This document shows, piece by piece, positions 3,850-30,176 of a stretch of DNA of 48,520 nucleotides. Below the pieces are notes generated by a model. It was not told where the DNA came from, did not search any database, and saw only the letters and a list, made by a program, of their open reading frames with translations. This DNA comes from Pseudonocardia sp. Its GTDB lineage: Bacteria; Actinomycetota; Actinomycetes; Mycobacteriales; Pseudonocardiaceae. Location of the stretch: the NCBI RefSeq assembly GCF_025965585.1, contig NZ_JAOPWR010000364.1:1-48520 (forward strand), read 5' to 3'. The position numbers and the translations under genes are program-made. How positions within the stretch are numbered: the first letter of the stretch is position 1; every line of letters begins with the position of its first letter.

Positions 3850-4768
3850 GGAGCCTCCTCGTCAGTCCGGCCGTCTCCAGGATCTCCGGGACGCCGCGCT
3901 CGTACCCGAACGCCATGACGTGCACGCCCGCCAGGTGCGGGATCTCCCGCAGCGCGGCGATCGTCTCCGCGCACATCAGCACACCCTCGTCCGCGACGCG
4001 GTGGGCGGGCACGCCGCGCAGCCGGCGCCCGACCGACTCGGGGACGACCACCCCGGGCACCCTCGTGCGCAGGAACTCGTGGGCGCGCAGCGACCGGACC
4101 GGCCCGACGCCGGCGATCACCGCGCACCGCTGCGTGAGCCCCAGGTCCACCACCTGGCGCATCCACGCGGCGAACGCCGCCACGTCGAACACGAACTGGG
4201 TCTGGCAGAACTCCGCGCCCGCCGCCACCTTCTTGCCCAGCCGCGCGGCCCGGAACCGGGTGGGCGGGGCGAACGGGTTCTCCACCGCGCCGACGAGGAA
4301 CCGGGGCGGCGGGTCCACCACCCGTCCCGACAGCAGCCGGCCCTCGTCTCGCATGGTCCGGGCCGTCCGGACGAGCTGGACGCCGTCCAGGTCGAACACC
4401 GGCTTGGCCTCGGGATGGTCACCGTGGACGGGGTGGTCGCCCGTCAGCAGCAGCACGTTCGGGATGCCCAGGACAGCAGCGGAGAGCAGGTCCGACTGCA
4501 GCGCGATGCGGTTGCGGTCGCGGCAGGTCAGCTGCATCACCGGCTCGATGCCGGCCTCGGCGGCCAGCACGCATCCGGCGAGGCTCCCGACCTGCACGTG
4601 GGCACTGGGGTTGTCGGTGACGTTGACGGCGTCCACCCACCCCCGCAGGTGCCCCGCGGCGCGGGCGATCGCGTCGCGGTCGGCACCGCGGGGAGGACCG
4701 ATCTCGGCCGTGACGGCGAACCGGCCCGCGGCGAGCGCACCGCGCAGGCCCGGACCGGGACCGGTCAC
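3839..4768 (-). CDS. metF: 5,10-methylenetetrahydrofolate reductase (MetF)
   Basis: Interconverts 5,10-methylene-THF and 5-methyl-THF. The 309-residue TIM-barrel size is that of bacterial MetF. Motifs include TAEIGPPRG at the N-terminus, NVTDNPSAHV, LTCRDRNRIALQSDL, LLLTGDHP and AEFCQTQFVFD, where the Gln is the usual folate-binding position. The start is GTG at 4768, in a GTGA overlap with the stop of the MetV-like gene; a longer reading frame upstream has no MetF similarity and was not used. Pairing with a separate MTHFR_C/MetV protein is the arrangement of MetVF-type reductases in acetogens. The physiological direction (methionine synthesis or methyl oxidation) is not set by sequence. Confidence 0.93.
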   Translation of the reverse strand: MTGPGPGLRGALAAGRFAVTAEIGPPRGADRDAIARAAGHLRGWVDAVNVTDNPSAHVQVGSLAGCVLAAEAGIEPVMQLTCRDRNRIALQSDLLSAAVLGIPNVLLLTGDHPVHGDHPEAKPVFDLDGVQLVRTARTMRDEGRLLSGRVVDPPPRFLVGAVENPFAPPTRFRAARLGKKVAAGAEFCQTQFVFDVAAFAAWMRQVVDLGLTQRCAVIAGVGPVRSLRAHEFLRTRVPGVVVPESVGRRLRGVPAHRVADEGVLMCAETIAALREIPHLAGVHVMAFGYERGVPEILETAGLTRRLRAG

Positions 4769-5325
4769 GCCCGGGCCCCGGGCATCCCCAGGTCGACCGG
4801 CCCGCCGGCGCCGCGGCCGGTCGGTCCCGTCCGAGGCGCCGCGGACGGCTCCGTCCACAGGCCCTCGTCGCGGCCGAGCCAGTACTGCACCCAGGAGCTC
4901 GCTCCGGTCAGGCGGTGGTCGACGGGCCGCTGGAAGCGGGTGAGGTCGTCGGCGTGGCCGGCCTCCTCCGCGCGTTCCAGCGCGGTGACCCACACACACG
5001 TCACGCCGGGGTGCACCTCGCAGTCTCCGTTGGCCGCGACGCCGCCGCACGGGCCGTTGCGCAGCTGCTTGGGGCACGTCATCGGGCACGCGTACCCGGT
5101 GGCCGGCAGCGCGCACTGGCCGCACATCCGGCACCCGAACAGCGCCTCCTTGCCCCGGCGCTCCGCGGCGGTGAACAACCGCAGGGCCCGGGGGTGGCGC
5201 TCCAGCCGGGCGGCCAGCCGGCGGTACAGCGCGTTCGGTGCCACCAGCGGTGCGAGCCGGTAGGTCGCGCGGGCGGACGGGCGGGGGCGTGCCGGGCGGG
5301 GCCATCCGGGCGCCGTCTCCGCCAT
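4765..5325 (-). CDS. MetV-like protein, MTHFR C-terminal cysteine-rich domain
   Basis: This 186-residue protein matches the methylene-THF reductase C-terminal family (PF12225), known as MetV in acetogens. A cysteine-dense block holds C65, C68 and C71 (CRMCGQC), C80, C84 (CPMTCPKQ), C93 (RNGPCGGV), C102 and C110, enough for a metal or Fe-S centre. In acetogens MetV partners MetF and may bring in electrons from another carrier. The ATG at 5325 has a GGAGG 7-8 bases upstream. An alternative ATG at 5367 would add 14 residues and overlap the preceding stop in a TGATG coupling; I prefer 5325 for its ribosome site, but the longer form is possible. It overlaps metF by four bases. Confidence 0.82.
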   Translation of the reverse strand: MAETAPGWPRPARPRPSARATYRLAPLVAPNALYRRLAARLERHPRALRLFTAAERRGKEALFGCRMCGQCALPATGYACPMTCPKQLRNGPCGGVAANGDCEVHPGVTCVWVTALERAEEAGHADDLTRFQRPVDHRLTGASSWVQYWLGRDEGLWTEPSAAPRTGPTGRGAGGPVDLGMPGARA

Positions 5326-5366
5326 GACCCCGCCTCCGGCCGGGCACTTGTGGCTCGCGACAGGCA

Positions 5367-5603
5367 TCAGCCCGGACGGGCGGGCAGCTCGACGGCCGTC
5401 ATCGCCCTGGCGACGACCGGACGCAGCCGTCCGGGCAGGGGGGTGGCACCGGCCCGGAGGTGGGCGACGGCGGCCCGCAGCTCGGCCACCTCACGACGCA
5501 GATCGGTGATGAGTGCCTGGTCGGCGGCCGCCCGCTCGGTCTCGACGTGCCCGCTGATGCGTTCGAGCTCGGTGAGCAGGGGATGGACGATGCTCTGGGA
5601 CAC
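5367..5603 (-). CDS. Small coiled-coil protein heading the one-carbon operon, function unknown
   Basis: The 78 residues contain no recognised family. The middle (about residues 10-50, LLTELERISGHVETERA and LRREVAELRAAVAHLRAG) shows heptad spacing of Leu/Ala/Val typical of a short amphipathic coiled coil; the C-terminus is basic then Ala/Pro rich. The GTG start at 5603 has a strong GAGGAG upstream, and the stop touches the possible extended start of the MetV-like gene (TGATG). It is the first gene of the operon, opposite pucR. It could be a scaffold or a small regulator for the MetV/MetF pair, but that is only inferred from position. Confidence 0.6.
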   Translation of the reverse strand: MSQSIVHPLLTELERISGHVETERAAADQALITDLRREVAELRAAVAHLRAGATPLPGRLRPVVARAMTAVELPARPG

Positions 5604-5737
5604 CGGTGGCCTCCTCGGCGTGCGTGCCTGTCGATGACCACGCTAGGGCGCGCTGTGGCCCCGGACACATGTGCTCGACCACAAATCGGAGGGGCGAACA
5701 GTGGCCGCGGAGCCCAAGCGGCTCCTACGCTGCGCCC
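5604..5737. promoter_or_regulatory. Divergent promoter region between the metV-metF operon and pucR, with stacked inverted repeats
   Basis: This 134-base gap feeds both the minus-strand operon and the regulator. Two adjacent inverted repeats are visible: TGTGCTCGACCACA at 5670-5683 (12 of 14 positions symmetric) and TGTGGCCCCGGACACA at 5654-5669 (12 of 16). They are the natural candidates for the PucR operator. A minus-strand -10-like TAGCGT sits at 5645-5640, about 37 bases before the GTG start. On the plus strand TACGCT at 5726-5731 lies exactly six bases before the pucR ATG, which suggests a leaderless transcript. The -35 elements are weak on both strands. Confidence 0.5.
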
Positions 5738-7096
5738 ATGGCCGCGGCGGCAGGAGCGAACCCGGCTCCGGGGCTGCGGCTCGAGGCCGTGCCCCCCGAG
5801 CGCCGGGAGAACGTCCTGCTGCGCGAGCTCGTGGCCGCGTTCAGCCACCTGTCGGCGCTCGCGTCGCAGGACGCCGACGTCGACGGGGTGGTGCGGCTCG
5901 TGGCGCGCCGCACGGGCTGCTGGGTCGCTGTCGTGGGCCCCGACCCGGTCGGCGAGCCCGACGTCCTGTCCGCGGCGCCGCCCGACGCCGCCCAGCGGTT
6001 CACCGAGGCGGTCGGCGGCGACCGCCTCGCCGCGGTGCTCGGGGCGGCCGCGCAGAACCGGCGCGCTGTGTCGCTCTCGGGGCTGTCGCTCTCGGGGCCG
6101 GCCGCCGACGGGCCTCTACTCGACCGGGCCGGGCTCGCCGGGGCCGCGCTCGACCGGGCCGTGGTCGTGCCGGTGCTGGTCGGCCACGACGTCGCCGCGC
6201 ACCTCGTCACGGTGGCGTCGGACGAGCCCGAGCTCGGCGACGACCTGCTGCTCCTGCTCGCCGAGCACGCCGCCACGGTCTGCGGGATCATCCTCGGCCG
6301 CGAACGCGTGGTGGCCGCCGCGGCGGGCCGGGCCCGCACCGACCTCGTCGAGGGGCTGCTGCTCGCCCGCGACCGCGACGCCGCGGAGGCCGACCGCTGG
6401 GCCGGGCACCTCGGGTTCGCCCGCGGCACCGAGCACCATGTCCTCGCGGTCGGCGTCGTGGAGACCCCGGATCGGGCGCGGGTGCTCGCCACCGCCGAGC
6501 ACACCATCACCCGCGGGCGGTCCGCCGCGATCGTCGCGGTGCGCGAGTCCGAGGTCGTGGCCGTCGTGCCCGCCCCGGACGGCTCCCGGCCGGGGCTCGA
6601 CGCCGTCCGCGAGCTGGCGCAGCGGTGCCGGGCCGCCGTGCTCGACCGCCATCCCGGCGCCGACGTCGTCGCGGGCATCGGGGGGTGCTGCCGCGAGGCC
6701 GGGGAGATCGCGCGCTCCTACAGCGAGGCCCGCAGCGCCATCGACGCCGCGCGCCGGATGCCCCGCGCTCCGGCCGTCGTCGCGTTCGGGGAGCTGGGGG
6801 TGCTGCGGCTGCTGCTGCAGGTGCCCGACCTCGGCGAGCTGCGGGCGTTCGCGGACGACGTGCTCGGGGACGTCGCCCGCGACGGGCGCACCGGTGCCGA
6901 CCTGCTCGGGACGCTGGTGGAATGGTTCCGCTGCAACGGCAGCCCGCAGCGCACCGCGGGAGAGCTGCACGTGCACCCCAACACGGTCGCCTACCGGATC
7001 CGGCGGGTCGAGGAGATCTCCGGGCTGCGCCTGGACCACCACCGTGACCGGCTGCTCGCGCAGCTGGCCTGCGAGATCGTGCAGGTGCTGCCGTGA
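5738..7096 (+). CDS. PucR/CdaR-family transcriptional regulator
   Basis: The 452-residue protein has the layout of PucR/CdaR regulators: an N-terminal sensory GAF-like part (about residues 25-185), a GGDEF-like middle (about 200-360, with the SYSEARSAIDAARR stretch) and a C-terminal HTH_30 domain containing HPNTVAYRIRRVEEISG around residues 400-430. Such regulators usually control catabolic operons in response to a small ligand. I chose ATG 5738: it follows the leaderless-type TACGCT-N6 arrangement, while upstream codons in the frame lack support. It is divergent from the one-carbon operon and overlaps the next gene by four bases (GTGA), so it likely controls both. The ligand is unknown. Confidence 0.88.
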   Translation: MAAAAGANPAPGLRLEAVPPERRENVLLRELVAAFSHLSALASQDADVDGVVRLVARRTGCWVAVVGPDPVGEPDVLSAAPPDAAQRFTEAVGGDRLAAVLGAAAQNRRAVSLSGLSLSGPAADGPLLDRAGLAGAALDRAVVVPVLVGHDVAAHLVTVASDEPELGDDLLLLLAEHAATVCGIILGRERVVAAAAGRARTDLVEGLLLARDRDAAEADRWAGHLGFARGTEHHVLAVGVVETPDRARVLATAEHTITRGRSAAIVAVRESEVVAVVPAPDGSRPGLDAVRELAQRCRAAVLDRHPGADVVAGIGGCCREAGEIARSYSEARSAIDAARRMPRAPAVVAFGELGVLRLLLQVPDLGELRAFADDVLGDVARDGRTGADLLGTLVEWFRCNGSPQRTAGELHVHPNTVAYRIRRVEEISGLRLDHHRDRLLAQLACEIVQVLP

Positions 7097-15723: not shown

Positions 15724-17420
15724 CGGTGGGCCACCTCCCGTGCCTCGGTCAGCGCGCGACCGGCCTCCAGGTGGACCAGCTCGTCGGCGAGGTCGGACCA
15801 GCCCGCGTCGTGGGCGACGATCACGCCGGTCCGCCCTTCCAGCAGCCGGGCGACCCCGGCGCGGACGAGCGCGGCGTTCTCCGGGTCGAGGTGGGCGGTC
15901 GGCTCGTCCAGGAGGACGACGACGTCCCCGTCCGCCGTGGCGGTGCGCAGGAATGCGCGGGCCAGGGCGATGCGTTGCCGCTGACCGGCCGACAGGCGGG
16001 TGCCGCGCTCGCCGAGACGCGTGGCGTAGCCGCCGGGCAGGGCGGTGATCATCGCGTGGGCTTCCGCGAGCCGGGCCGCGGTCTCCACCTGCGCGTCCGT
16101 CGCGTCCGGGGCGCCGAGGCGGATGTTGTCGGCCACCGACGCGTCGAACAGGTACGGGCGCTGCGGCACCCACGCGAGCCGGCGCCGCCAGTCGTCGGCA
16201 GGGACGTCGGTGAGGCGCACGGGGGTGCCGTCGCGCCCGGTGACCGTGATCGTGCCGCGGTCCGGGTCGCCGAAGCGCAGCAGCAGCCCGAGCAGGCTGG
16301 TCTTGCCGGCGCCGCTGCGACCCGTGACGAGGGTGGTGGTGCCGGGGCGCAGCACCAGGTCCAGGTCGTGCAGCGCCGGGACCTCGCGGCCGGGATGGGT
16401 GAGGCCGACCCCACGCAGCCGGATCTCCGGTGCCGCGGCCGGCGCGGCCGGTGCGGCCGGGACCGGCGCCGGTCCGCCCGGGCCGTCGAGCACCGCGAAC
16501 ACGCGTTCCGCGGCCACCACGCCCTCCATGCTCGCGTGGAAGCGGGCTCCCACCTCGCGCAACGGCAGGTAGGCCTCCGGCGCGAGGATCAGCACGAGCA
16601 GCGCCGTCTCCAGGTCGAGCCGGCCGTAGAGCAGCCGCAGCCCGATCTCGACGGCCACGAGGGCCACCGCGACCGTCGAGAGCAGCTCCAGCACGAACGC
16701 CGACAGGAACGCGATCCGCAGGGTGCCCATCGTGGCGCGGCGGTGGTCGTCGGTGACCCGCCGGATCAGCGCGGCCTCGGCCTTCGCCCGGCGGAACAGC
16801 GCCAGCGTCGGCAGCCCCTCGACGACGTCGAGGAAGTGACCGCCGAGCCGCTCCAGCAGCCGCCACTGCTTCCGCGTGCGGTCCTGGGTGTGCCATCCGA
16901 CGAGGGCCATGAACACCGGGATCAGCGGCAGTGTCAGTGCGATGACCAGCGCGGAGATCCAGTCGGCCCGCGCCACCACCACGAGCACGGCCACCGGGAC
17001 GAGCACGGCGAGCACGAGCTGCGGGAGGTAGCGGGCCACGTAGTCGTCGAGGGCGTCGAGGCCGCGGGTGGCGAGCGTGGCGAGCTCGCCGGCGTCGGTC
17101 CGGACGGGGTCGGCGGCCGGCCCGGTCGCGTGGGCGACGAGCTGCCGCCGTAGGTCGGACTTCACCCGGGCCGCGCTGCGCAGGGCCGCGGTCTCGGCAC
17201 CGTGCGCCAGCGCGGTGCGGGAGAGGACGACCACGCCCACCGCCGTGACGGCCGCGGCGATCCCGGCCGCGCCCGTCGCGGCCCCGGAGATCACCCGCGC
17301 CACCAACCATGCCTGCGCCAGGATCAGCCCGGTGAGTGCCAGCCCGCAGGCGACCGTCACGACGAGGTGCACGCGCACCGACCGCGTGGTGCGGACGAGC
17401 CGGGGATCGAGGGGTTTCAT
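15720..17420 (-). CDS. cydD: ABC transporter CydD (thiol reductant exporter subunit)
   Basis: A 566-residue half-transporter: membrane helices in about residues 18-310, then an ATPase domain with Walker A GRSGAGKTS, signature LSAGQRQRIALARAFL and Walker B VVVLLDEPTAHLDPE. It partners CydC in assembling cytochrome bd oxidase. The ATG at 17420 overlaps the cydB stop in an ATGA; a long upstream reading frame is only a shadow of cydB. A Pro/Ala-rich linker (VPAAPAAPAAAPE) sits between the two domains. Confidence 0.92.
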   Translation of the reverse strand: MKPLDPRLVRTTRSVRVHLVVTVACGLALTGLILAQAWLVARVISGAATGAAGIAAAVTAVGVVVLSRTALAHGAETAALRSAARVKSDLRRQLVAHATGPAADPVRTDAGELATLATRGLDALDDYVARYLPQLVLAVLVPVAVLVVVARADWISALVIALTLPLIPVFMALVGWHTQDRTRKQWRLLERLGGHFLDVVEGLPTLALFRRAKAEAALIRRVTDDHRRATMGTLRIAFLSAFVLELLSTVAVALVAVEIGLRLLYGRLDLETALLVLILAPEAYLPLREVGARFHASMEGVVAAERVFAVLDGPGGPAPVPAAPAAPAAAPEIRLRGVGLTHPGREVPALHDLDLVLRPGTTTLVTGRSGAGKTSLLGLLLRFGDPDRGTITVTGRDGTPVRLTDVPADDWRRRLAWVPQRPYLFDASVADNIRLGAPDATDAQVETAARLAEAHAMITALPGGYATRLGERGTRLSAGQRQRIALARAFLRTATADGDVVVLLDEPTAHLDPENAALVRAGVARLLEGRTGVIVAHDAGWSDLADELVHLEAGRALTEAREVAHR

Positions 17421-18418
17421 GCCGCGCCGACGTGCGCCCGGGTGACCCGGCGGCGGAACACCCAGTAGCTCCACGACTGGTAGGCGATCACCACCGGGAG
17501 GAAGATCCCGCCGACCCAGCTGAGCAGCCCCAGCGTGTACGGCCCCGAGGCGGCGTTCGCCACCGTCAGGTCGAAGGCCGGGTCCAGGGTCGAGGGCAGC
17601 ACTGCGGGGTAGAGCGACCCGAACAGCACCACCGTGAACGCCGCGATCGTGACGACGGTGGCCACGAACGCCCAACCCTCCCGCCCGAGGGCCGCGAGCA
17701 CCGCACCGGCGAGCAGGGCCACGACGGCGCCGACCGCGGCGGCGGTGGTCCATCCCGCGCCGTGGGCCGTCTGTGTCCAGGCGAGGAAGCCCGCGAGCAC
17801 GGTGACGGCCACCGGCCCCGTCCGCCGCACGGCAGCGCGGGCGCGGTGCCGGACCGGTCCGTCGGTCTTGAGCGCCAGGAACACGGCGCCGTGCAGGGTG
17901 AAGAGTGTCAGCGTGGCCAGGCCGCCGAGCAGCGCGTACGGGCTGAGCAGGTCGGCCACGCCAGACCGCACGACGCCGTCGGGTCCGAGCTCGACACCCC
18001 GCACGAGGTTCGCGAGCACCACGCCCCAGACGAACGCCGGCACGACGCTGCCCACGACGATCCCGAGGTCGCAGCGGCGCACCCACGCGCGGTCGTCCAC
18101 CTTGCCCCGGTACTCCAGCGCGACCCCGCGCACGATGAGCGCGAGCACCACGAGCAGCACGGGCACGTAGAAGCCGCTGAGCGTCGCTCCGTACCAGGCG
18201 GGGAACGCGGCGAACATCGCGCCGATCGCGGTGATCAGCCAGACCTCGTTGCCGTCCCAGACGGGTCCGATCGCGTCGAGCACCACCCTGCGGTCGCCGC
18301 GCGAGCGACGGCCGAGCACCGGCAGCAGGATGCCGACGCCGAAGTCGAAGCCCTCCAGCACGAAGTAACCGGTCCACAGGACCGCGATGGCGACGAACCA
18401 GACGGTGGGGAGATCCAC
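17417..18418 (-). CDS. cydB: Cytochrome bd ubiquinol oxidase subunit II
   Basis: A 333-residue integral membrane protein with the CydB N-terminus MDLPTVWFVAIAVLWTGYF followed by LEGFDFGVGILLP, the conserved start of this family, and eight to nine hydrophobic helices. It is the second subunit of the high-affinity quinol oxidase that reduces oxygen in the membrane at low oxygen tension. The start is ten bases after the cydA stop region and the end overlaps cydD, so all four genes are one transcript. Confidence 0.95.
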   Translation of the reverse strand: MDLPTVWFVAIAVLWTGYFVLEGFDFGVGILLPVLGRRSRGDRRVVLDAIGPVWDGNEVWLITAIGAMFAAFPAWYGATLSGFYVPVLLVVLALIVRGVALEYRGKVDDRAWVRRCDLGIVVGSVVPAFVWGVVLANLVRGVELGPDGVVRSGVADLLSPYALLGGLATLTLFTLHGAVFLALKTDGPVRHRARAAVRRTGPVAVTVLAGFLAWTQTAHGAGWTTAAAVGAVVALLAGAVLAALGREGWAFVATVVTIAAFTVVLFGSLYPAVLPSTLDPAFDLTVANAASGPYTLGLLSWVGGIFLPVVIAYQSWSYWVFRRRVTRAHVGAA

Positions 18419-18428
18419 GGTCGTCCTC

Positions 18429-19853
18429 CTAGTAGCCGAGCGCGGGGACGAGGGGCTCGTCGCCCGAGTCGGAGCCCGCGACCGGGACGGGCTCGGGACC
18501 CTTCTTGACGTACCGCCACAGCAGCCGGGCCTCGACGACCGCGAGCGCGCCGTAGAGGGCGGTGAACACGGTGAGCGAGAGCGCCACCTCGGCGAGGCTG
18601 ACGCCGGGGGAGACGCTGGCCGCGGTGAGCAGCTCGCCCACGACCGTCCACGGCTGGCGGCCCATCTCGGTGAGGACCCAGCCGAAGATGTCGGCGGTGA
18701 GCGCCGCGGGCAGGGCGGCGACAGCCACCCGGTACATCCAGCGCTGCTCGGGCAGCCGCCCCCGGCGGGTGAGCCACAGGCCGGCCACGCCGACGCCGAC
18801 GCCGGCCAGGCCCAGCCCCATCATCAGCCGGAACGCCCAGTACAGGACGGGCACGTCCGGGACGTAGTCGCCGGGCCCGTACCGCGCAACGTTCTGGGCC
18901 TGGATCTCGGTGATGCCCTGCACGGGCGCGGAGAACGTGTCGGTGGCGAGGAAGCTGAGCAGGTAGGGGATCTGGACGTTGAGGTGGTTGCGGCTGCCCT
19001 CGACGTCGCCGACCGCGAACAGCGAGAACCCGGCGGGCTGCTCGGTCTGCCACAGCGCCTCGGCCGAGGCGAGCTTCATGGGCTCGTACTGCGCCATGAG
19101 CTGCGCCTGGTTGTGGCCCGAGAGCGCGACGACGATGCCCGCGATCGCGGTGGTGGCCAGACCGGCGCGCAGCGTGCGGCGGAACATCTCGTGGTCGGCC
19201 TGCGGGGCGTCCGCCTTGCCGTTGCGGGTGCGCAGGATCCGGATGGCGCTGACGGCGACGACGAACAGCCCCGCGACGACGAACGACGCGCCGAGCACGT
19301 GCACGTACGTCGAGAGCGCCTGCGGGTTCGTCAGCACCGCGACGATGTCGGTGAGGTGCGCGCGCCCGGTGGCGGGGTCGACCGTGAAGCCGACGGGGTG
19401 CCGCATCCAGGCGTTCGCCGAGAGGATGAAGAACGCCGACAGGTTGGAGCCGATCGCGGCGACCCAGATGGTGGCGAGGTGCACGCGCTTCGGCAGCCGG
19501 TCCCAGCCGAAGATCCACAGCCCGATGAACGTGGACTCCAGGAAGAACGCGAGCAGCGCCTCGAGCGCGAGGGGAGCGCCGAAGACGTCGCCGACGAACG
19601 TCGAGTAGGCGCTCCAGTTCATCCCGAACTGGAACTCCTGGACGATGCCGGTCACCACGCCCATGGCGAAGTTGATCAGGAACAGCTTGCCGAAGAACTT
19701 CGTGGCCCGCAGGTACTCGGCCCGGCCGGTGCGGTGCCAGGCGCTCTGCAGGGCCGCGACGACGACCGACAGGCCGATCGTCAGCGGGACGAACAGGAAG
19801 TGGTAGATCGTCGTGATCCCGAACTGCCATCGGGACAGGTCCAGGGCATCCAC
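18429..19853 (-). CDS. cydA: Cytochrome bd ubiquinol oxidase subunit I
   Basis: The heme-carrying subunit of cytochrome bd oxidase, 474 residues with about nine helices. Visible marks are FGITTIYHFLFVPLTIG with the family His near residue 17, the quinol-site sequence WVLTEMGRQPWTVVGELLT, and a short Q-loop. GTG at 19853 is preceded by CGGAGG six bases away. It leads the cydABDC operon and is divergent from the flavin/heme cluster at 19971; two palindromes in the shared promoter region probably control it. Confidence 0.96.
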   Translation of the reverse strand: MDALDLSRWQFGITTIYHFLFVPLTIGLSVVVAALQSAWHRTGRAEYLRATKFFGKLFLINFAMGVVTGIVQEFQFGMNWSAYSTFVGDVFGAPLALEALLAFFLESTFIGLWIFGWDRLPKRVHLATIWVAAIGSNLSAFFILSANAWMRHPVGFTVDPATGRAHLTDIVAVLTNPQALSTYVHVLGASFVVAGLFVVAVSAIRILRTRNGKADAPQADHEMFRRTLRAGLATTAIAGIVVALSGHNQAQLMAQYEPMKLASAEALWQTEQPAGFSLFAVGDVEGSRNHLNVQIPYLLSFLATDTFSAPVQGITEIQAQNVARYGPGDYVPDVPVLYWAFRLMMGLGLAGVGVGVAGLWLTRRGRLPEQRWMYRVAVAALPAALTADIFGWVLTEMGRQPWTVVGELLTAASVSPGVSLAEVALSLTVFTALYGALAVVEARLLWRYVKKGPEPVPVAGSDSGDEPLVPALGY

Positions 19854-19875
19854 GCAGTGCCTCCGTTCACCGAAC

Positions 19876-19910
19876 TTCTACGTCCGGTAGTAGTTCTACA
19901 CCCCGTAGAA
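19876..19910. promoter_or_regulatory. Two tandem TTCTAC-N5-GTAGAA operators between cydA and the redox cluster
   Basis: Copy 2 (19894-19910) is a perfect 6-5-6 palindrome, TTCTAC-ACCCC-GTAGAA. Copy 1 (19876-19892) is TTCTAC-GTCCG-GTAGTA, with one base breaking symmetry. Centres are 18 bases apart, close to two helical turns. They lie about 25-60 bases upstream of the cydA GTG and 60-95 upstream of the divergent ATG at 19971, so one dimeric repressor pair could control both. The half site shares TAC/GTA with BlaI/CopY-type sites, but the regulator is not in the window. Confidence 0.65.
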
Positions 19911-19970
19911 GAATCCTCCGCACAGGACCGGCACAGCCGACGCACAGGGAGCGTCGGCACCGTCGGGGAC

Positions 19971-20240
19971 ATGAACCGGACAGAGCGTGCAGCGGGGCGC
20001 CGCAGGGTCGTCGCCGTGACGGCCGCGATCGCGGGAGTAGGCGTCACCGGAGCCGTCGGCCTCGCTGTCGTCGCAGCTCACGGCTCCGCCGACGCGAGCA
20101 CCACCGCTTCCGGAACCGCCACCGACGGCTCCAGCAGCAGCGCGGACGGCTCCTCGTCGAACGCGTGGCAGCCCTCCGGCGCCACCGTCGGCCAGGGATC
20201 GGCGAGTGGCGGATCACACGCCTCGTCGGGCGGATCGTGA
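19971..20240 (+). CDS. Small membrane-anchored Ser/Gly-rich protein with an SGAT motif, possible flavinylation target
   Basis: The 89-residue product has a basic N-terminus (RTERAAGRRR), one hydrophobic segment (about residues 13-35, AVTAAIAGVGVTGAVGLAVV) and an outer low-complexity tail rich in Ser, Gly and Thr. Near residue 68 the tail reads QPSGATVGQGS. SGAT is the core of the ApbE flavinylation sequence in FMN-binding proteins such as NqrC, but the usual FMN-binding fold is absent. Its stop overlaps the apbE start (TGATG), which supports a functional pair. It may be the flavin carrier at the outer face; without the fold this is a hypothesis. The start has only a weak GGGGA nearby. Confidence 0.6.
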   Translation: MNRTERAAGRRRVVAVTAAIAGVGVTGAVGLAVVAAHGSADASTTASGTATDGSSSSADGSSSNAWQPSGATVGQGSASGGSHASSGGS

Positions 20241-21172
20241 TGCCGCTCCTGGAGACCCTCCCCCTGGGGCCCGGCACCGCACAGTGGCCGCTGTGGAGCA
20301 CCACCGCGCGGCTCGTCGCCACCGATCCCGGCGCGCTCCCGGTGGCGCGACGCGTCGTCGAGGACGTGACACGGCGCGTGGAGGCGGCGTGCAGCCGGTT
20401 CCGGCCCGACTCCGAGATCGCGATGCTCCCCGGCGACGGCACCCCGGCCCGGGTGAGCCCGCTGCTGGCCGAGCTCGTGCGGACCGCGCTGCTGGCCGCC
20501 CGTCGCACCGACGGCGACGTCGACCCGACGCTGGGTGCCGCGCTGGCCGCCGCCGGCTACGACCGCGACTTCTCCCTCCTGGGCGACGGTCCGCTGCGGA
20601 CGTTCCTGGCCGCGCCCGAGCCGGCGTGGCGGCGGGTCCAGCTCGACGGCGACGTCCTCACCGTGCCCGCGGGCACCCGGCTCGACCTGGGCGCGACGGC
20701 CAAGGCCTGGGCCGCCGACCACAGCGCGGCCGAGGTCGCCCGCGCCTGCGGGAGCGGCGTGCTGGTGGCTCTGGGCGGCGACATCGCCACCGCGGGCCCC
20801 GCGCCCGTCGACGGCTGGCAGGTGCTCGTCCGGGACCAGGCGGAGGACCCCGCCGCTCCCGTCACGCTCGGGGCCGGCGGCGCGCTGGCCACCTCCAGCA
20901 CCGTCAGCCGCACCTGGGAGAACGGTGGCGGGAAGGGCCGGGGAAGGACGGCCCACCACGTCCTCGACCCGCGCTCCGGCATGCCCGTGGCCGCGGTCTG
21001 GCGCACGGTCAGCGTCGCGGCCGGCACGTGCGTCGAGGCGAACACCCTCACCACCGCGGCGGTCGTCCGCGGGCTCGACGCGCTGCCCTGGCTGCGTGCG
21101 CTCGGCGTCCCGGCCCGCCTGGTCGGTGCCACGTTCAAGATCCTCACCCTCGGAGACTGGCCGTCCTCATGA
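20240..21172 (+). CDS. apbE: FAD:protein FMN transferase (ApbE family)
   Basis: The 310-residue protein has the ApbE motif series: VDPTLGAAL, LDLGATAKAWAAD, ALGGDIATAG, HHVLDPRSGMP and CVEANTLTTAAVVRG, which cover the FAD and Mg sites. ApbE attaches FMN covalently to Thr or Ser in an SGAT-type motif. No signal peptide or lipobox is seen, so this copy may act in the cytoplasm, unlike exported relatives. It starts in a TGATG overlap with the small SGAT protein and ends in an ATGA overlap with the heme protein; this tight order says it serves the local electron-transfer system. Confidence 0.88.
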   Translation: MPLLETLPLGPGTAQWPLWSTTARLVATDPGALPVARRVVEDVTRRVEAACSRFRPDSEIAMLPGDGTPARVSPLLAELVRTALLAARRTDGDVDPTLGAALAAAGYDRDFSLLGDGPLRTFLAAPEPAWRRVQLDGDVLTVPAGTRLDLGATAKAWAADHSAAEVARACGSGVLVALGGDIATAGPAPVDGWQVLVRDQAEDPAAPVTLGAGGALATSSTVSRTWENGGGKGRGRTAHHVLDPRSGMPVAAVWRTVSVAAGTCVEANTLTTAAVVRGLDALPWLRALGVPARLVGATFKILTLGDWPSS

Positions 21173-21750
21173 TCAACGCCCTGTGGTACCTCGGCCGCGG
21201 CACGGGGGTGGTGTCGCTGGTGCTGCTCACGCTCGTCGTCGGGCTGGGTATCGCGACGCGCTCCGGCCGCCCACTGCCGGGCCTGCCCCGCTTCGCCGTC
21301 ACCGCGGTGCACCGCAGCGCGAGCCTGCTCGCCGTCGCGTTCCTGGTGGTGCACGTCGGCACGCTGCTCTTCGACCCCTACGCGCAGCTCGACGTCCTGT
21401 CGCTCGTCGTCCCGTTCACCGCGGCGGCGCAGCCCTTCTGGTACGGCCTGGGCGCGCTCGCGCTCGACCTGATCCTCGCGCTCGTCGCGACGAGCCTGCT
21501 GCGCGACCGCATCGGGCCGCGCATCTGGCGTGGCATCCACTGGGCCGCCTACGCGGCCTGGCCGATCGCGCTCGCCCACGGCCTCGGCTCGGGCAGGGAC
21601 GCCGGCACCGGCTGGATGCTCACGACCACCGGCCTCTGCGTGGCAGCGGTGCTCGGTGCCGTCGGCTGGCGGGTGTCCGACCGCTTCGCCGAGGTGCGCG
21701 GGCCCGCTCCCGCCCCCGTCGTCCCCGCCCCCCTGATCGGTGTCCGATGA
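21169..21750 (+). CDS. Ferric-reductase-like transmembrane di-heme b protein
   Basis: A 193-residue integral membrane protein with about five to six helices and two His pairs: His48-x13-His62 and His124-x12-His137. The x13/x12 spacing is that of the two stacked b hemes in ferric reductases and NADPH oxidases, so electrons probably cross the membrane here. There is no attached flavin or NAD domain; the downstream NuoF-like protein and ferredoxin could supply electrons inside and the flavinylated tail could accept them outside. It overlaps apbE and the NuoF-like gene by four bases each. Confidence 0.82.
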   Translation: MINALWYLGRGTGVVSLVLLTLVVGLGIATRSGRPLPGLPRFAVTAVHRSASLLAVAFLVVHVGTLLFDPYAQLDVLSLVVPFTAAAQPFWYGLGALALDLILALVATSLLRDRIGPRIWRGIHWAAYAAWPIALAHGLGSGRDAGTGWMLTTTGLCVAAVLGAVGWRVSDRFAEVRGPAPAPVVPAPLIGVR

Positions 21751-22937
21751 CCGCTCTCACCACGGCCGCCGGGACGGTCCCGTCCCACCCCCTCCTCGAC
21801 GCCGCGCGGCTGCGGCTCGAGGACCACCTGCGCCACGTCGGACCGATCCCGTGGGCCGTCCCGCTCGTGCGCGAGCTGGAGGCCGCCGGGCTGACCGGCC
21901 GCGGGGGCGGGGGCTTCCCCGTCGCCCGCAAGCTCACCGTGGCGGCCTCGGCCGCGGCAGCCACCGGCCGCGTCCCACTCGTCGTCGCCAACGGGGCGGA
22001 GGGTGAACCGGCCAGCGCCAAGGACCGCCGGTTGCTCGCCCACGCCCCGCACCTCGTCCTCGACGGGCTACAGCTCGCGGCCGCGGCGATCGGTGCCGAC
22101 CGGGCGCACGTGCTCGTCGCGCCCGCCGCTCTGGTCGCCGTGCAGGCGGCGCTGGTGGAACGCGCCGGCGTCGACCGGGTCCCCGTGGAGGTCACGGTCG
22201 CCGCCGAGCGGTTCGTCGCGGGGGAGGAGTCGGCCGTCGTCGCCGCGCTGGAGGGACGGCCCGCGCTTCCCGGCGACAAGCTCCGCCGCGTCGTCGAGTC
22301 CGGGGTGCACGGCCGTCCCACTGCCGTGCAGAACGTCGAGACGCTCGCGCACCTGGCGCTGATCGCACGGTTCGGGGCGGGCTGGTTCCGCTCCCGCGGG
22401 ACGGCCACCGAACCGGGGACGGCGCTGGTCACGGTGAGCGGGGCGCTCGACCGGCCCGGCGTCGTCGAGGTGGCCCACGGGACCCCGCTGCGCGCGGTCC
22501 TCGACGGCGCGGGCCTTCGGCATCCCGCACCGGTGCTGGTCGGCGGCTTCCACGGCGCCTGGCTCGCCCCGCACGAGGTCGGCGTCGCGACCTTCTCCCG
22601 CGCGTCGCTCGGTGGATACGGGGCCGCGACGGGGGCGGGCGTGCTGATCGCGCTCCCGCCGGGCGTCTCCGGGATGGTCGAGACCGCCCGGATCGCGGCC
22701 TACCTGGCCGGGCAGAGCGCCCGCCAGTGCGGGCCCTGCCAGGGCGGGCTGCCGCGCATGGCCGACGTGCTCGGCCGGATCGCCGCGGGTGACCGCGACC
22801 CCCGGCTGGTCGCCGAGCTGCACCGGCTCGCCGGGCTCACGGCGGGCCGCGGCGCCTGCCACCACCCCGACGGCACCGTGCGGCTGGTCCGCAGTGCCCT
22901 GCGCGTCTTCGGAACCGACCTCGGAGCGATCTCGTGA
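21747..22937 (+). CDS. NuoF-like NADH-binding flavo-iron-sulfur protein
   Basis: A 396-residue relative of the 51-kDa NADH dehydrogenase subunit. It keeps the FMN/NAD stretch GRGGGGFPVARK, NGAEGEPASAKDR, VAGEESAVVAALEG and GRPTAVQNVET. In the cluster-binding region the canonical four Cys are reduced to three: Cys328 and Cys331 in QCGPCQGG and Cys371 in GACHHP; the first Cys of the usual CGKCTPC motif is replaced by Ala. It probably oxidises NAD(P)H and passes electrons to the adjacent ferredoxin, or runs in reverse. No other Nuo genes are nearby, so it is not part of a complex I operon. Confidence 0.82.
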   Translation: MTALTTAAGTVPSHPLLDAARLRLEDHLRHVGPIPWAVPLVRELEAAGLTGRGGGGFPVARKLTVAASAAAATGRVPLVVANGAEGEPASAKDRRLLAHAPHLVLDGLQLAAAAIGADRAHVLVAPAALVAVQAALVERAGVDRVPVEVTVAAERFVAGEESAVVAALEGRPALPGDKLRRVVESGVHGRPTAVQNVETLAHLALIARFGAGWFRSRGTATEPGTALVTVSGALDRPGVVEVAHGTPLRAVLDGAGLRHPAPVLVGGFHGAWLAPHEVGVATFSRASLGGYGAATGAGVLIALPPGVSGMVETARIAAYLAGQSARQCGPCQGGLPRMADVLGRIAAGDRDPRLVAELHRLAGLTAGRGACHHPDGTVRLVRSALRVFGTDLGAIS

Positions 22938-23146
22938 CCACCCTCCACATCGACTGGACCCGCTGCCAGGGCCGCGGCGGCTGCGTCGAGCTGCTGCCCG
23001 AGCTGATCGGCCGCGACGAATGGGGCTACCCGCTCACCGGCACCGACGTCGCCGTGCCCCGGGCGTTGCACGGCCACGCCCGGCAGGCGGTGCGCGACTG
23101 CCCGCGCCTCGCCTTGCGGCTGGAGCAGGGCCGGGATACCCCCTGA
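22934..23146 (+). CDS. Small ferredoxin with three cluster cysteines
   Basis: A 70-residue protein with Cys11-x5-Cys17 (CQGRGGC) and Cys56 followed by Pro (RDCPRLAL), the three-Cys pattern of [3Fe-4S] ferredoxins that serve P450s and similar partners. The GTG start lies in a GTGA overlap with the NuoF-like stop, and the protein is last in the 19971-23146 operon. It likely shuttles electrons between the NuoF-like protein and the heme protein. No P450 is close by. Confidence 0.85.
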   Translation: MTTLHIDWTRCQGRGGCVELLPELIGRDEWGYPLTGTDVAVPRALHGHARQAVRDCPRLALRLEQGRDTP

Positions 23147-28325: not shown

Positions 28326-28471
28326 CCCTGCCCGGTGCGCCGCTCCGCCGGTGCGTCGTGCTGGAGGTGCCAGAAGCGGCGGGGGAGTTGGTCACCGGAG
28401 GTCGAGGCGCCGGTACCCGGAGGGCGACGAAGGTCAGGTCTCGGCGACGCTGCCGGGACCGAAGGAGACCC

Positions 28472-29002
28472 ATGGCCGAGTTCCTCACCGACATCAAGAC
28501 GATTCGCGACCGGGCCCGGCAAGAGATGGACAAGGGCCCGGTGACTCCCGCCTACGGCGCCGACGTGGGCCGGGTGCTCGCCGTGCTCAACGAGGCACTG
28601 GCCACCGAGATCGTGTGTGTCCTCCGGTACAAGCAGCACCACTACGCGGCCAGGGGGCTCAATGCCCACGCGGTGGCCGACGAGTTCGCCGAGCACGCGG
28701 ACGAGGAGCAGGGCCACGCCGACCGGTTCGCCGAGCGGATCTCCCAGCTGGGCGGCACGCCGGACATGAACCCGGACACGCTGTCCGGCCGCGCGCACTC
28801 GGAGTACACCACCGCCCCCCAGCTGATCGAGATGATCAAGGAGAACCTGGTGGCGGAACGGATCGCGATCGCGTCCTACACCGAGATCATCAACTGGCTC
28901 GGGGACGGCGACGTCACGACGCGGCGGATCTTCGAGAACACCCTGGCGAACGAGGAGGAGCATGCCGACGACATGCTCACCTTCCTCGAACAGATGTCCT
29001 GA
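28472..29002 (+). CDS. Ferritin-like diiron protein (bacterioferritin type)
   Basis: A 176-residue four-helix bundle with ferroxidase-type ligands: NEALATEIVCVLRYKQHHY, DEEQGHADRF (ExxH), ENLVAERIAIASY and NEEEHADDM (ExxH). Length and motifs fit bacterioferritin or related Dps-like ferritins. I do not see a clear heme-ligating Met of classic Bfr, so heme binding is doubtful. The ATG has GAAGGAGA upstream. It leads a three-gene unit; the next GTG is two bases past its stop. Iron storage or detoxification is the expected role, and the tail proteins downstream may be its partners. Confidence 0.82.
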   Translation: MAEFLTDIKTIRDRARQEMDKGPVTPAYGADVGRVLAVLNEALATEIVCVLRYKQHHYAARGLNAHAVADEFAEHADEEQGHADRFAERISQLGGTPDMNPDTLSGRAHSEYTTAPQLIEMIKENLVAERIAIASYTEIINWLGDGDVTTRRIFENTLANEEEHADDMLTFLEQMS

Positions 29003-29004
29003 CC

Positions 29005-29724
29005 GTGACCGCCGCGGTACGGGACGTGGCCGTCCGGGACTACGACTCCGGCGTCTTCCAGAGGCTCAACGACTTCTCGGTGGCCCGCGGGTACCTCGGC
29101 CACAGCCGCGACTACGTGACGGAGCTGGGCGACCTGATCTGCCACCACGGCCTGCACGAGGTCCTCGGCGTGACGTTGCTGCACAAGCACTTCGAGATCA
29201 CCGGCGACGAGATGGTCGTGCGCGAGTTCGTCGACGGCGTCTCCTACATGAGGCCGTGGGACGTCGAGGCGCTCCCGCTGGTGCTGCCCTACCTGTGGAA
29301 GGCCGAGGTCGACGGGGGGCACGCCGACTACTTCCCGCTCGAGTTCTGCGCGTACCCGGCCGGGATCCAGGACGAGGTGGAGCGCGACCTGGACCGGCTG
29401 CGGGACTCCGTCGGCTTCCTCGCCGCGTTCGCCGAGGCGCTCGACGCGCTGGGCCTGCGCGAGGTCTTCGGCCTGGCGCACCTGCGCTCGCGCGACGGGC
29501 TGACCCTGGGTGCAGGCGAGACGCTGCTCGAGACCACCGACGAGGTGAACCGCATCCTCACTCTCCGCCCGGCGCGGGCGCAGGAGGTGGAGGGCCTCGA
29601 CACCACGCAGACGCTGTGGATCTACCGGCCGGCGCCCTCACGGGTCGGTGCGGTGCTCAACAGGGGCTCAGGTGGCGTGCACTGTGCGGCCCACTGCCAG
29701 GCGCACTGCACCGGCCATCACTGA
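29005..29724 (+). CDS. Unrecognised 239-residue protein ending in a HC-x2-HC-x2-HC tail
   Basis: I do not recognise a characterised family. The body (about residues 1-205) is rich in aromatic and acidic residues, with LGDLICHHGLHEVLGVTLLHKHFEI as its most distinctive part, a style seen in some uncharacterised fungal and bacterial proteins. It has no signal peptide or membrane helix. After a Gly/Ser hinge the last 14 residues carry H226-C227, H230-C231, H234-C235 and H238-H239. The same tail ends the next gene's product. The GTG lies two bases after the ferritin stop, so they are co-translated. A metal-binding or modified tail is plausible; an enzymatic role for the body is not shown. Confidence 0.7.
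   Translation: MTAAVRDVAVRDYDSGVFQRLNDFSVARGYLGHSRDYVTELGDLICHHGLHEVLGVTLLHKHFEITGDEMVVREFVDGVSYMRPWDVEALPLVLPYLWKAEVDGGHADYFPLEFCAYPAGIQDEVERDLDRLRDSVGFLAAFAEALDALGLREVFGLAHLRSRDGLTLGAGETLLETTDEVNRILTLRPARAQEVEGLDTTQTLWIYRPAPSRVGAVLNRGSGGVHCAAHCQAHCTGHH
29677..29721 (+). other. Cys/His tail coding segment, copy 1
   Basis: This segment encodes VHCAAHCQAHCTGHH, the C-terminus of the 29005 protein. It follows the pattern HC-x-A-HC-x-A-HC-x-G-H-H, with Cys at every fourth residue and His before each Cys. If helical, the Cys residues would lie on one face; if extended, they could wrap a metal or be post-translationally modified. Confidence 0.85.
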
Positions 29725-29779
29725 AGCGGCCCATCCGGCCGGAACGACCACGGGAATCACGGCGAACGGAGGACACCGA

Positions 29780-30061
29780 ATGACCACGGGTGGACGAGGG
29801 CGCGGACGTTCACAGACCGAGGGGAGCAGCCAGCCGTCCGAGAGCCAGACCAGTTCCGGGGAATCATCGTCATCCACCGAGCTGCGGGACTTCAAGACAC
29901 AGGCGCGGGCCATGTCCGAGTCCGATCGTGAGGCCGCTTTCTCGAGTGACGAGTTCCGGCGCCTGGTGGCCGCGGCGGCGGTGCCGACCGTCGTGGCCGA
30001 GGCGGAGTGCGCCAGCCACTGCTACTCGCACTGCGGCAGCCACTGCTTCGGCCACGGCTGA
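29780..30061 (+). CDS. Small Ser-rich peptide ending in a C-x3-HC-x2-HC-x2-HC-x-G-H tail
   Basis: A 93-residue protein not known to me. Residues 1-33 are low complexity (Gly/Arg, then Ser/Gln/Glu); residues about 34-72 (ELRDFKTQARAMSESDREAAF and so on) look like an amphipathic helix that could be a leader; residues 76-93 are the tail with Cys77, 81, 85, 89 and His80, 84, 88, 92. The tail aligns without gaps to that of the 29005 protein. ATG 29780 has GGAGGA at the correct distance. The layout (leader, Ala/Val stretch, short Cys-rich end) recalls ribosomal peptide precursors, but no known maturase is recognised next to it; a metal carrier is the alternative. It closes the ferritin unit before the hairpin at 30076. 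Confidence 0.72.
   Translation: MTTGGRGRGRSQTEGSSQPSESQTSSGESSSSTELRDFKTQARAMSESDREAAFSSDEFRRLVAAAAVPTVVAEAECASHCYSHCGSHCFGHG
30005..30058 (+). other. Cys/His tail coding segment, copy 2
   Basis: This segment encodes ECASHCYSHCGSHCFGHG, the C-terminus of the 29780 peptide. Relative to copy 1 it has an extra Cys three residues before the first His-Cys pair. The nucleotide sequences of the two copies differ at many codons, so similarity at protein level is not a recent DNA duplication. Confidence 0.85.
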
Positions 30062-30075
30062 GGTGCCCCTCGGGG

Positions 30076-30104
30076 CGGGGCCGGGCGCGTGGCGTCCGGC
30101 CCCG
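30076..30104 (+). terminator. Hairpin terminator after the ferritin/tail unit
   Basis: CGGGGCCGG (30076-30084) pairs perfectly with CCGGCCCCG (30096-30104) around an 11-base loop, 15 bases past the stop at 30061. There is no T-run. Confidence 0.6.
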
Positions 30105-30176
30105 TCCTGTGGTCCCGCGCCGAACGGGCGGCGCGCCTGCCGGACCCCGGCGGCCGACGTCGCTAGCGTCGACGGA

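Follow-up and report, generated by a model that had tools for sequence, protein, structure and literature searches.

Three genes in tandem at a mini-ferritin locus

The stretch of DNA analyzed here, referred to as the window, comprises 48,520 nucleotides of contig NZ_JAOPWR010000364.1 from the soil bacterium Pseudonocardia sp. Inspection of its open reading frames places three genes in tandem on the plus strand at positions 28472-30061. The first, dpsL (28472-29002, 176 residues), encodes a DpsL-type, PA4880-like mini-ferritin. It is followed by p239 (29005-29724, 239 residues), with two copies of an LLHxHF domain and a Cys/His tail, and by p93 (29780-30061, 93 residues), with a Ser/Gly/Arg-rich N-terminus, a middle segment and a CxxH tail. 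The bodies of p239 and p93 are unrelated, and their C-termini share one short pattern, with p239 ending in HCAAHCQAHCTGHH and p93 in ECASHCYSHCGSHCFGHG. The first-pass annotation of this DNA, made from the letters alone, had described a ferritin-like gene followed by 239- and 93-residue proteins with common Cys/His C-termini, and the open reading frames and a six-frame motif scan confirmed that layout. It also knew of no described system of this kind; none was found in the open-licence literature, where searches of 5.39 million papers for the CxxH repeat in five spellings likewise returned no match.

The product of dpsL matches the Pfam Ferritin family (E = 2.6e-27), and its best sequence match in the PDB is 8w1d (E = 2.4e-60). 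The alignment covers residues 5-175, so that homology to PA4880-type mini-ferritins extends over the whole chain, and the Glu/His-rich helices correspond. Entry 8W1D is Pseudomonas aeruginosa DpsL (PA4880), which PMC11150526 describes as a mini-ferritin that assembles as a 12-mer, has ferroxidase centres of the bacterioferritin type, stores iron and also nicks DNA. The P. aeruginosa protein differs from the first gene product of the trio in its reported context, as the abstract and the passages of PMC11150526 consulted mention no p239- or p93-like partner and its main text does not use the word 'operon'.

Translation of p239 starts at a GTG codon 2 nt past the dpsL stop. A GGAGG Shine-Dalgarno sequence (29768-29772, plus strand) lies 7 nt 5′ of the p93 ATG and recurs 5′ of p93 in Pseudonocardia bannensis and Pseudonocardia acidicola, and the p93 reading frame is kept across the three Pseudonocardia species. 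Because of this GGAGG and the conserved frame, p93 is very likely translated, and the failure of translation that the first-pass annotation had allowed for at 29780 did not appear in the two intact sets of close homologues. On the same strand, a strong hairpin of 18 pairs (30071-30109) closes the unit. The 71-nt stretch that contains it folds at -54.4 kcal/mol and stands out from shuffled sequences (z = -4.97), and the hairpin noted in the first pass is therefore real. It has no T-run and a terminator scan of the region called nothing, so its proposed role as a terminator is likely only.

Tandem CxxH tails and their conservation

The p239 tail (29680-29721, plus strand) contains three CxxH units, and the p93 tail (CASHCYSHCGSHCFGHG, 30008-30058, plus strand) contains four (C77/81/85/89 and H80/84/88/92). 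Across the six frames of the window, the motif HC-x2-HC-x2-HC occurs twice, in both cases exactly at the C-termini of p239 and p93. It was absent from 100 first-order Markov simulations of the window, in which the shorter HC-x2-HC appeared 0.03 times per simulation, and an origin of the tails by chance was ruled out on this basis. The HC-x2-HC-x2-HC pattern drawn in the first pass is thus real at both C-termini, but the unit is better read as a tandem CxxH of variable number. Among p239 orthologues, the count is 3, 4, 4 and, in the actinobacterium G877 (38% identity; 12 Cys and 12 His in the tail), ten CxxH plus one CxxxH. Each of the three species with the trio has both tails, and no tail was missing from the two intact sets of close homologues.

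Codon comparisons in three species pairs separate the two tails. Synonymous/non-synonymous differences over the 18 codons of the p93 tail are 4/1, 4/1 and 5/0, compared with 22/22, 20/25 and 27/12 over the p93 body, and by this measure the p93 tail is clearly kept by selection. The corresponding values for p239 are 6/3, 4/4 and 1/5 in the tail and 56/57, 51/65 and 54/36 in the body. Of 12 aligned columns in the p239 tails of the three Pseudonocardia, all 6 Cys/His columns and 2 of 6 spacer columns are shared. With G877 added the Cys/His columns remain 6/6 and the spacers fall to 0/6, a comparison in which only the spacer half is unbiased, G877 having been chosen for its CxxH units and its Cys/His match being partly by choice. 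These alignments point to selection on the p239 tail that holds for Cys and His only. The earlier claim that both tails are kept by selection therefore stands for p93, and for p239 it stands for the Cys and His residues but not for the tail as a whole.

Several explanations of the shared tails were considered and set aside. Recent copying between p239 and p93 as the sole cause was rejected: the codons of the two tails differ, and the p239 tail has a history of its own in relatives where p93 was not found. An old origin of one tail from the other would still be compatible with the sequences. Heme c binding was also discarded, as both tails have CxxH and HC pairs and neither has CxxCH. Classical C2H2 zinc fingers are spaced C-x2-4-C-x12-H-x3-5-H; the spacing of the tails differs, and Pfam returned no zinc-finger match. 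Repeated metal-ligand residues, on small proteins or on tails, are a feature of metallothioneins, copper storage proteins and the metallochaperones with His-rich tails (HypB, SlyD and UreE). The tails of p239 and p93 share this feature, and their pattern of Cys/His conservation would be compatible with metallothionein-like metal binding. They differ from these proteins in their lack of a family assignment, since Pfam and NCBIfam matched neither p239 nor p93 to metallothioneins or to copper storage proteins above cut-off, and the period-4 CxxH pattern is not known from metallothioneins, copper storage proteins, HypB, SlyD or UreE.

A duplicated domain in p239

Pfam and NCBIfam give no match above cut-off for p239 or p93, and PADLOC and PHROGs give none for either at E values of up to 0.1; the p239 family is unrecognized above threshold by all four annotation libraries. 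The lack of a PADLOC match led us to drop a defence system as the identity of the pair. C_tripleX (E = 0.089) and Methanobactin (E = 0.34) are among the sub-threshold matches of p93. Profile matches to coagulation factor XI (best E = 0.046), designed proteins (best E = 0.013), RicR (E = 0.084) and phrog_6085 (E = 0.015) were taken as chance.

The N-terminal and C-terminal halves of p239-type proteins match each other in a one-to-one profile comparison (95.6%, E = 1.2e-8). A profile built from ten single-domain relatives matches each half at about 2e-20 in one-to-one comparisons, and a single-domain profile matches the protein of locus L013 twice. On these profile comparisons, p239 is a tandem duplication of an LLHxHF domain of ~100 residues. 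The repeat is characterized by an HxHF motif and conserved acidic residues, with the second copy in two-domain proteins lacking HxH.

The AlphaFold2 model of p239 has a mean predicted local distance difference test score (pLDDT) of 74 and a predicted template modeling score (pTM) of 0.73, with residues 200-239 at pLDDT <50. Searched against the PDB with Foldseek, the two-domain model gave no match better than E = 0.21 and no confident fold, and the model of a single-domain relative is poor (pLDDT 67.7, pTM 0.42). The p239 model does match the Medusavirus stheno protein A0A7S7YEN9 (E = 5.5e-15, template modeling score 0.66, 29% identity), which carries the label of ureidoglycolate hydrolase and which, to judge from the models, has the same fold.

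The wider p239 family

The p239 alignment was scanned against a genome collection of 84,980 species and produced 117 pattern matches, of which tblastn confirmed 21 loci: 2 in Pseudonocardia, 16 in Mycobacterium/Mycolicibacterium and one each in Paenibacillus, Dawidia and Mucilaginibacter. Profile searches found the family in 4/397 genomes of the order and 8/394 of the class, both counts including the window genome and one genome whose protein was in the profile, and the latter also including the weak locus L054 (G892, E = 1.3e-4), which we excluded from family counts. Only the query-supplying genome was recovered in the phylum of the Dawidia genome (1/296), the order of G877 (1/35) and the order of the Paenibacillus genome (1/189). 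Bacteroidota, Pseudomonadota and other actinobacteria have the LLHxHF domain in single copy as well, and this form was found in 12 plasmid records, 10 of them from Pseudomonas and 9 covering at least 80% of the query. Plasmids held no match to p239 itself, viral contigs and phages held none to the single-domain relative, and p93 had no match in viral contigs, plasmids or phages at the sensitivity used. With a few scattered genomes and plasmid copies, the p239 family is therefore rare, patchy and partly mobile in the genomes searched, which were samples and in some cases incomplete. The p239 gene of G877, for example, has a low GC content at third codon positions (0.60), and a phage-integrase-family gene is located on either side of it, the two being some kilobases apart.

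We delimited the family by a homologous LLHxHF domain in one or two copies, which p239 has, and by at least two Cys residues in a C-terminal tail. Forty family proteins were read, or 38 distinct ones given two pairs with identical C-terminal 120 residues. A script counted at least two tail Cys in 39 of the 40, at least two tail His in 37, C-x3-C in 35, and C-x3-C followed by His within 12 residues in 32. The fortieth, L019 (tail CASLCWPIDDSHFDGH, protein end CASLCWPIDDSHFDGHQPVP), was missed by the script rule and by eye adds one to each count. Moreover, C227 and C231 are invariant in a 21-row alignment of two-domain proteins, in which identity to p239 is 22-28% outside the genus. The C-terminal Cys/His tail therefore belongs to the p239 family as a whole and is not a feature of ferritin loci. 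The result is a protein family defined across Actinomycetota, Bacillota, Bacteroidota and Pseudomonadota, with a putative structural relative in a giant virus, and its anchor is a C-terminal Cys/His tail able to expand into CxxH repeats.

Three further observations concern members of this family. In Mycolicibacterium sphagni, two p239-type genes (L029, positions 1-813 and 4574-5473) lie on either side of BacA-like and ABC genes; the two are identical over the first 645 bp and then diverge sharply through the tail. Gene conversion that switched the tail could account for this, as could an artefact of assembly, since the contig starts inside the repeat. Upstream of the Bacteroidota single-domain gene in both L020 and L027 lies a divergently transcribed gene of 171-179 residues with no Pfam match (5336-5875 and 5397-5912, respectively); each of these matches one other locus, and the two are alike by eye. 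Single-domain members on a Pseudomonas plasmid (L033, 4133-5683) and a Thiodictyon plasmid (L034) lie near transposases, a DM13-domain gene or an integron integrase.

Neighbors of p239 outside Pseudonocardia

Outside Pseudonocardia, the commonest neighbor of p239 is an ATP-binding cassette (ABC) exporter, which adjoins it in 12 of the 16 mycobacterial loci. Ten of these adjoining genes belong to one orthologous group (L018 in part only) and two to a clearly different one (22% identity, confirmed as ABC by Pfam). The neighbors in L012 and L015 are ABC transporters, and the scan found no ABC neighbor in L013, L014, L017 or L019. SbmA/BacA-like ABC genes are near p239 in 8/16 mycobacterial loci. 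Searching from the exporter side gave a strong match in 19 of 158 mycobacterial genomes. Flanks of ~1.5 kb contain p239 at 9/10 exporters with at least 62% identity, and at 0/9 with 58-60.5% identity; the nine p239-flanked loci are not all independent, since at least three of them (L078, L079 and L085) correspond to genes already counted as L021, L023 and L016. In G100, a pair of ABC transporter genes is found ~1.8 kb from the single-domain member, and a TPR gene intervenes.

The exporter association bears on a reading in which the tails are core peptides of a system like those of ribosomally synthesized and post-translationally modified peptides (RiPPs). The p239 protein would unite a catalytic domain and its own core, located at the C-terminus, in one chain. 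A second precursor for this product would be supplied by p93 as a free-standing protein, and mycobacteria would release the product through the adjacent ABC exporter. Such a scheme would account for unrelated p239 and p93 bodies ending in one short pattern, for C-terminal tails that vary among relatives (the unusual L013 tail is WCGGVHCYHYCWGC), for a p93 tail kept almost residue for residue with its spacers, and for the pairing of p239 with ABC exporters. The layout resembles fused and split borosins, without homology. Borosin precursors exist in a fused and a split form, and the likeness lies in a larger protein whose C-terminal peptide is found again on a second, small protein. The difference is that p239 has no methyltransferase domain, with neither a Pfam methyltransferase match nor a Foldseek match in the PDB better than E = 0.21, and any modification of p239 or p93 would be conjectural.

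The search for biosynthetic partners also speaks against a RiPP-like system. No known maturase (radical SAM, YcaO, LanM/LanC, MNIO or methyltransferase) was found among the trio, the flanking MeaB and YdjM-like genes and 10 further window genes, a set that does not cover every neighbor, and no protease or exporter was identified beside the Pseudonocardia trio in the subset of neighbors scanned. The Methanobactin match of p93 remains sub-threshold, p239 shows no match to an enzyme family and no confident fold in the PDB, and NCBIfam recognized no RiPP precursor above cut-off in p239, p93 or P. bannensis p93. Overall, we consider a RiPP-like system doubtful, if still a serious competitor. If the tails are modified and exported, they would constitute a new class of peptide natural product. 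A bolder proposal, to which we give a rather low probability, is of a self-contained peptide system of a kind not described before. In it, the LLHxHF domain would be an enzyme of a new type that modifies peptides or inserts metal, acting on the Cys/His tail fused to it and, in Pseudonocardia, also on the p93 precursor. Its product would be a secreted or stored CxxH-repeat metallopeptide, moved in mycobacteria by dedicated ABC exporters, often with a BacA-like ABC gene nearby.

Distribution within Pseudonocardia

Intact p93 is present in 3/62 Pseudonocardia genomes, and these three, the window genome, P. bannensis and P. acidicola, also hold the intact trio with both tails; p239 was found in 3 of 60 Pseudonocardia genomes searched. 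The dpsL gene occurs at 77-83% identity in four further genomes and hence in 5/62 with the window included, namely the three trio genomes, G035 and G026. In G035, what remains of p239 behind dpsL is a truncated stub (41 bp at 83%, E = 4.7e-7), which lies beside a meaB fragment. Matches to p93 in G075 and G112 have stops inside and were excluded from family counts. Linkage of p239 and p93 to dpsL is significant across the 62 genomes (Fisher 2.6e-4, ignoring phylogeny). The ferritin-linked unit proposed in the first-pass annotation is thereby upheld within Pseudonocardia but not beyond, no ferritin having been found near relatives outside the genus, and the expectation of a shared neighborhood among homologues fails for distant p239 relatives and for a p93 remnant in G052.

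This distribution raises the possibility that an accessory gene pair landed behind dpsL by chance, with the ferritin unrelated to p239 and p93. The patchy occurrence of the family, the decay seen in G035 and G052, its plasmid copies, the one copy between two phage-integrase-family genes and the presence of dpsL without the pair in G026 are all in keeping with a chance landing. It accords poorly with the p239 start 2 nt past the dpsL stop in the window, and with the finding of one gene order in two genomic settings within Pseudonocardia: the window trio has MeaB and YdjM-like flanks, and P. bannensis and P. acidicola share different flanking DNA. We regard a chance landing as very unlikely.

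A possible metal or oxidative-stress module

We favor the view, which we hold with about even confidence, that the trio is an accessory metal or oxidative-stress module whose tails would bind soft metals. The presence of a mini-ferritin in the unit makes a metal or oxidative-stress role the natural reading, and metal chelation by the p239 tail fits because its spacers are free, its unit number is free and its Cys and His are fixed. By analogy with its close characterized relative, DpsL would oxidize and store iron. The p239 protein would be soluble, with two copies of the new domain and a flexible C-terminal CxxH tail, and this tail would hold a transition metal with a preference for thiolates, probably zinc or copper(I) and less likely iron. 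Two CxxH units would make one Cys2His2 site. The p93 protein would be a small separate carrier with a like tail, whose four units might form about two sites, encoded in the unit so that metal could be buffered or passed between the tails, and perhaps also exchanged with the ferritin. In other lineages the family has the shorter C-x3-C...H...H tail, and the ABC exporter paired with it in mycobacteria would export metal or a metal-loaded product. Transport of metal-thiolate complexes is a function of some ABC exporters in other systems.

A precedent for the unit comes from peptide design. PMC8434281 describes METP3, a designed 11-residue peptide whose CxxH provides half of a tetrahedral Cys2His2 site. 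The peptide dimerizes, and the Cys2His2 site of the dimer coordinates Zn, Co and Cd. The natural tails share the CxxH, and they differ in carrying 3 to 11 tandem units. If they bind metal, they would represent a class of natural peptides for metal buffering that is new and that relies on the unit with which designers construct tetrahedral sites, and they may tie the handling of soft metals to iron storage by mini-ferritins.

The C-x3-C...H...H arrangement of most relatives, which resembles a compact Cys2His2 site, and the presence of a common tail on two proteins of one unit would also suit a structural or binding module. In such a module, the tails would act as zinc knuckles or partner-binding tags joining p239 to p93 or DpsL, and metal would serve to hold shape. 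The freedom of unit number, from 3 to 11, and the finding of neither p93 nor DpsL near relatives outside Pseudonocardia argue against this alternative, which we consider unlikely.

Several findings weigh against a metal module with soft-metal-binding tails. Some concern the tails themselves. In the AlphaFold2 model the p239 tail is disordered (pLDDT <50), and in the codon comparison it is, taken whole, no more conserved than the p239 body. The spacers of the p93 tail are nearly invariant as well, which is more than plain chelation requires. L052 and L053 have tail Cys and no tail His, and these two together with L032 and L033 are without C-x3-C; the tail is therefore not one fixed site. A conserved stretch past the last His in mycobacterial tails is left unexplained by metal binding.

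Other findings concern genomic context. None of the 19 non-Pseudonocardia p239 loci matched a ferritin or p93, and 27 further loci with flanks of 1.5 to ~10 kb likewise held neither, the sole p93 match among them being the tail of the G877 p239 itself. Within Pseudonocardia, no p239 or p93 was found in G026, which has dpsL, and G052 holds a frameshifted p93 remnant with no dpsL or p239 in 17 kb. No metal regulator or efflux pump was identified beside the trio in the subset of neighbors scanned, and no metal box was identified there, with no dedicated search for metal boxes made.

Flanking features and minor observations

Upstream of dpsL, positions 28380-28408 (plus strand) look conserved by eye in 5/5 Pseudonocardia genomes with this dpsL when 220 nt of upstream DNA are aligned, and may represent a shared promoter or operator; a sigma-70 scan of the region upstream of dpsL gave no consensus promoter. 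The trio is flanked by a MeaB gene upstream and by a YdjM-like gene downstream. Further upstream in the window, 5 to 11 kb from the trio, positions 17420-23143 encode cytochrome bd oxidase subunits, an ApbE-family gene and a 4Fe-4S domain gene.

Two observations were made at related loci. A lasso-peptide-like cluster in L059 (13646-14909), with PqqD-like and transglutaminase-like genes and a precursor-like open reading frame seen by eye, lies ~6 kb from a single-domain family member in a genome that we guess to be Streptomyces-like. Finally, a rhodanese gene (Pfam) converges on p93 in P. acidicola (L007, 8579-8974), and a rhodanese gene (Pfam) also converges on the p93 remnant of G052 (L038, 7732-8124).

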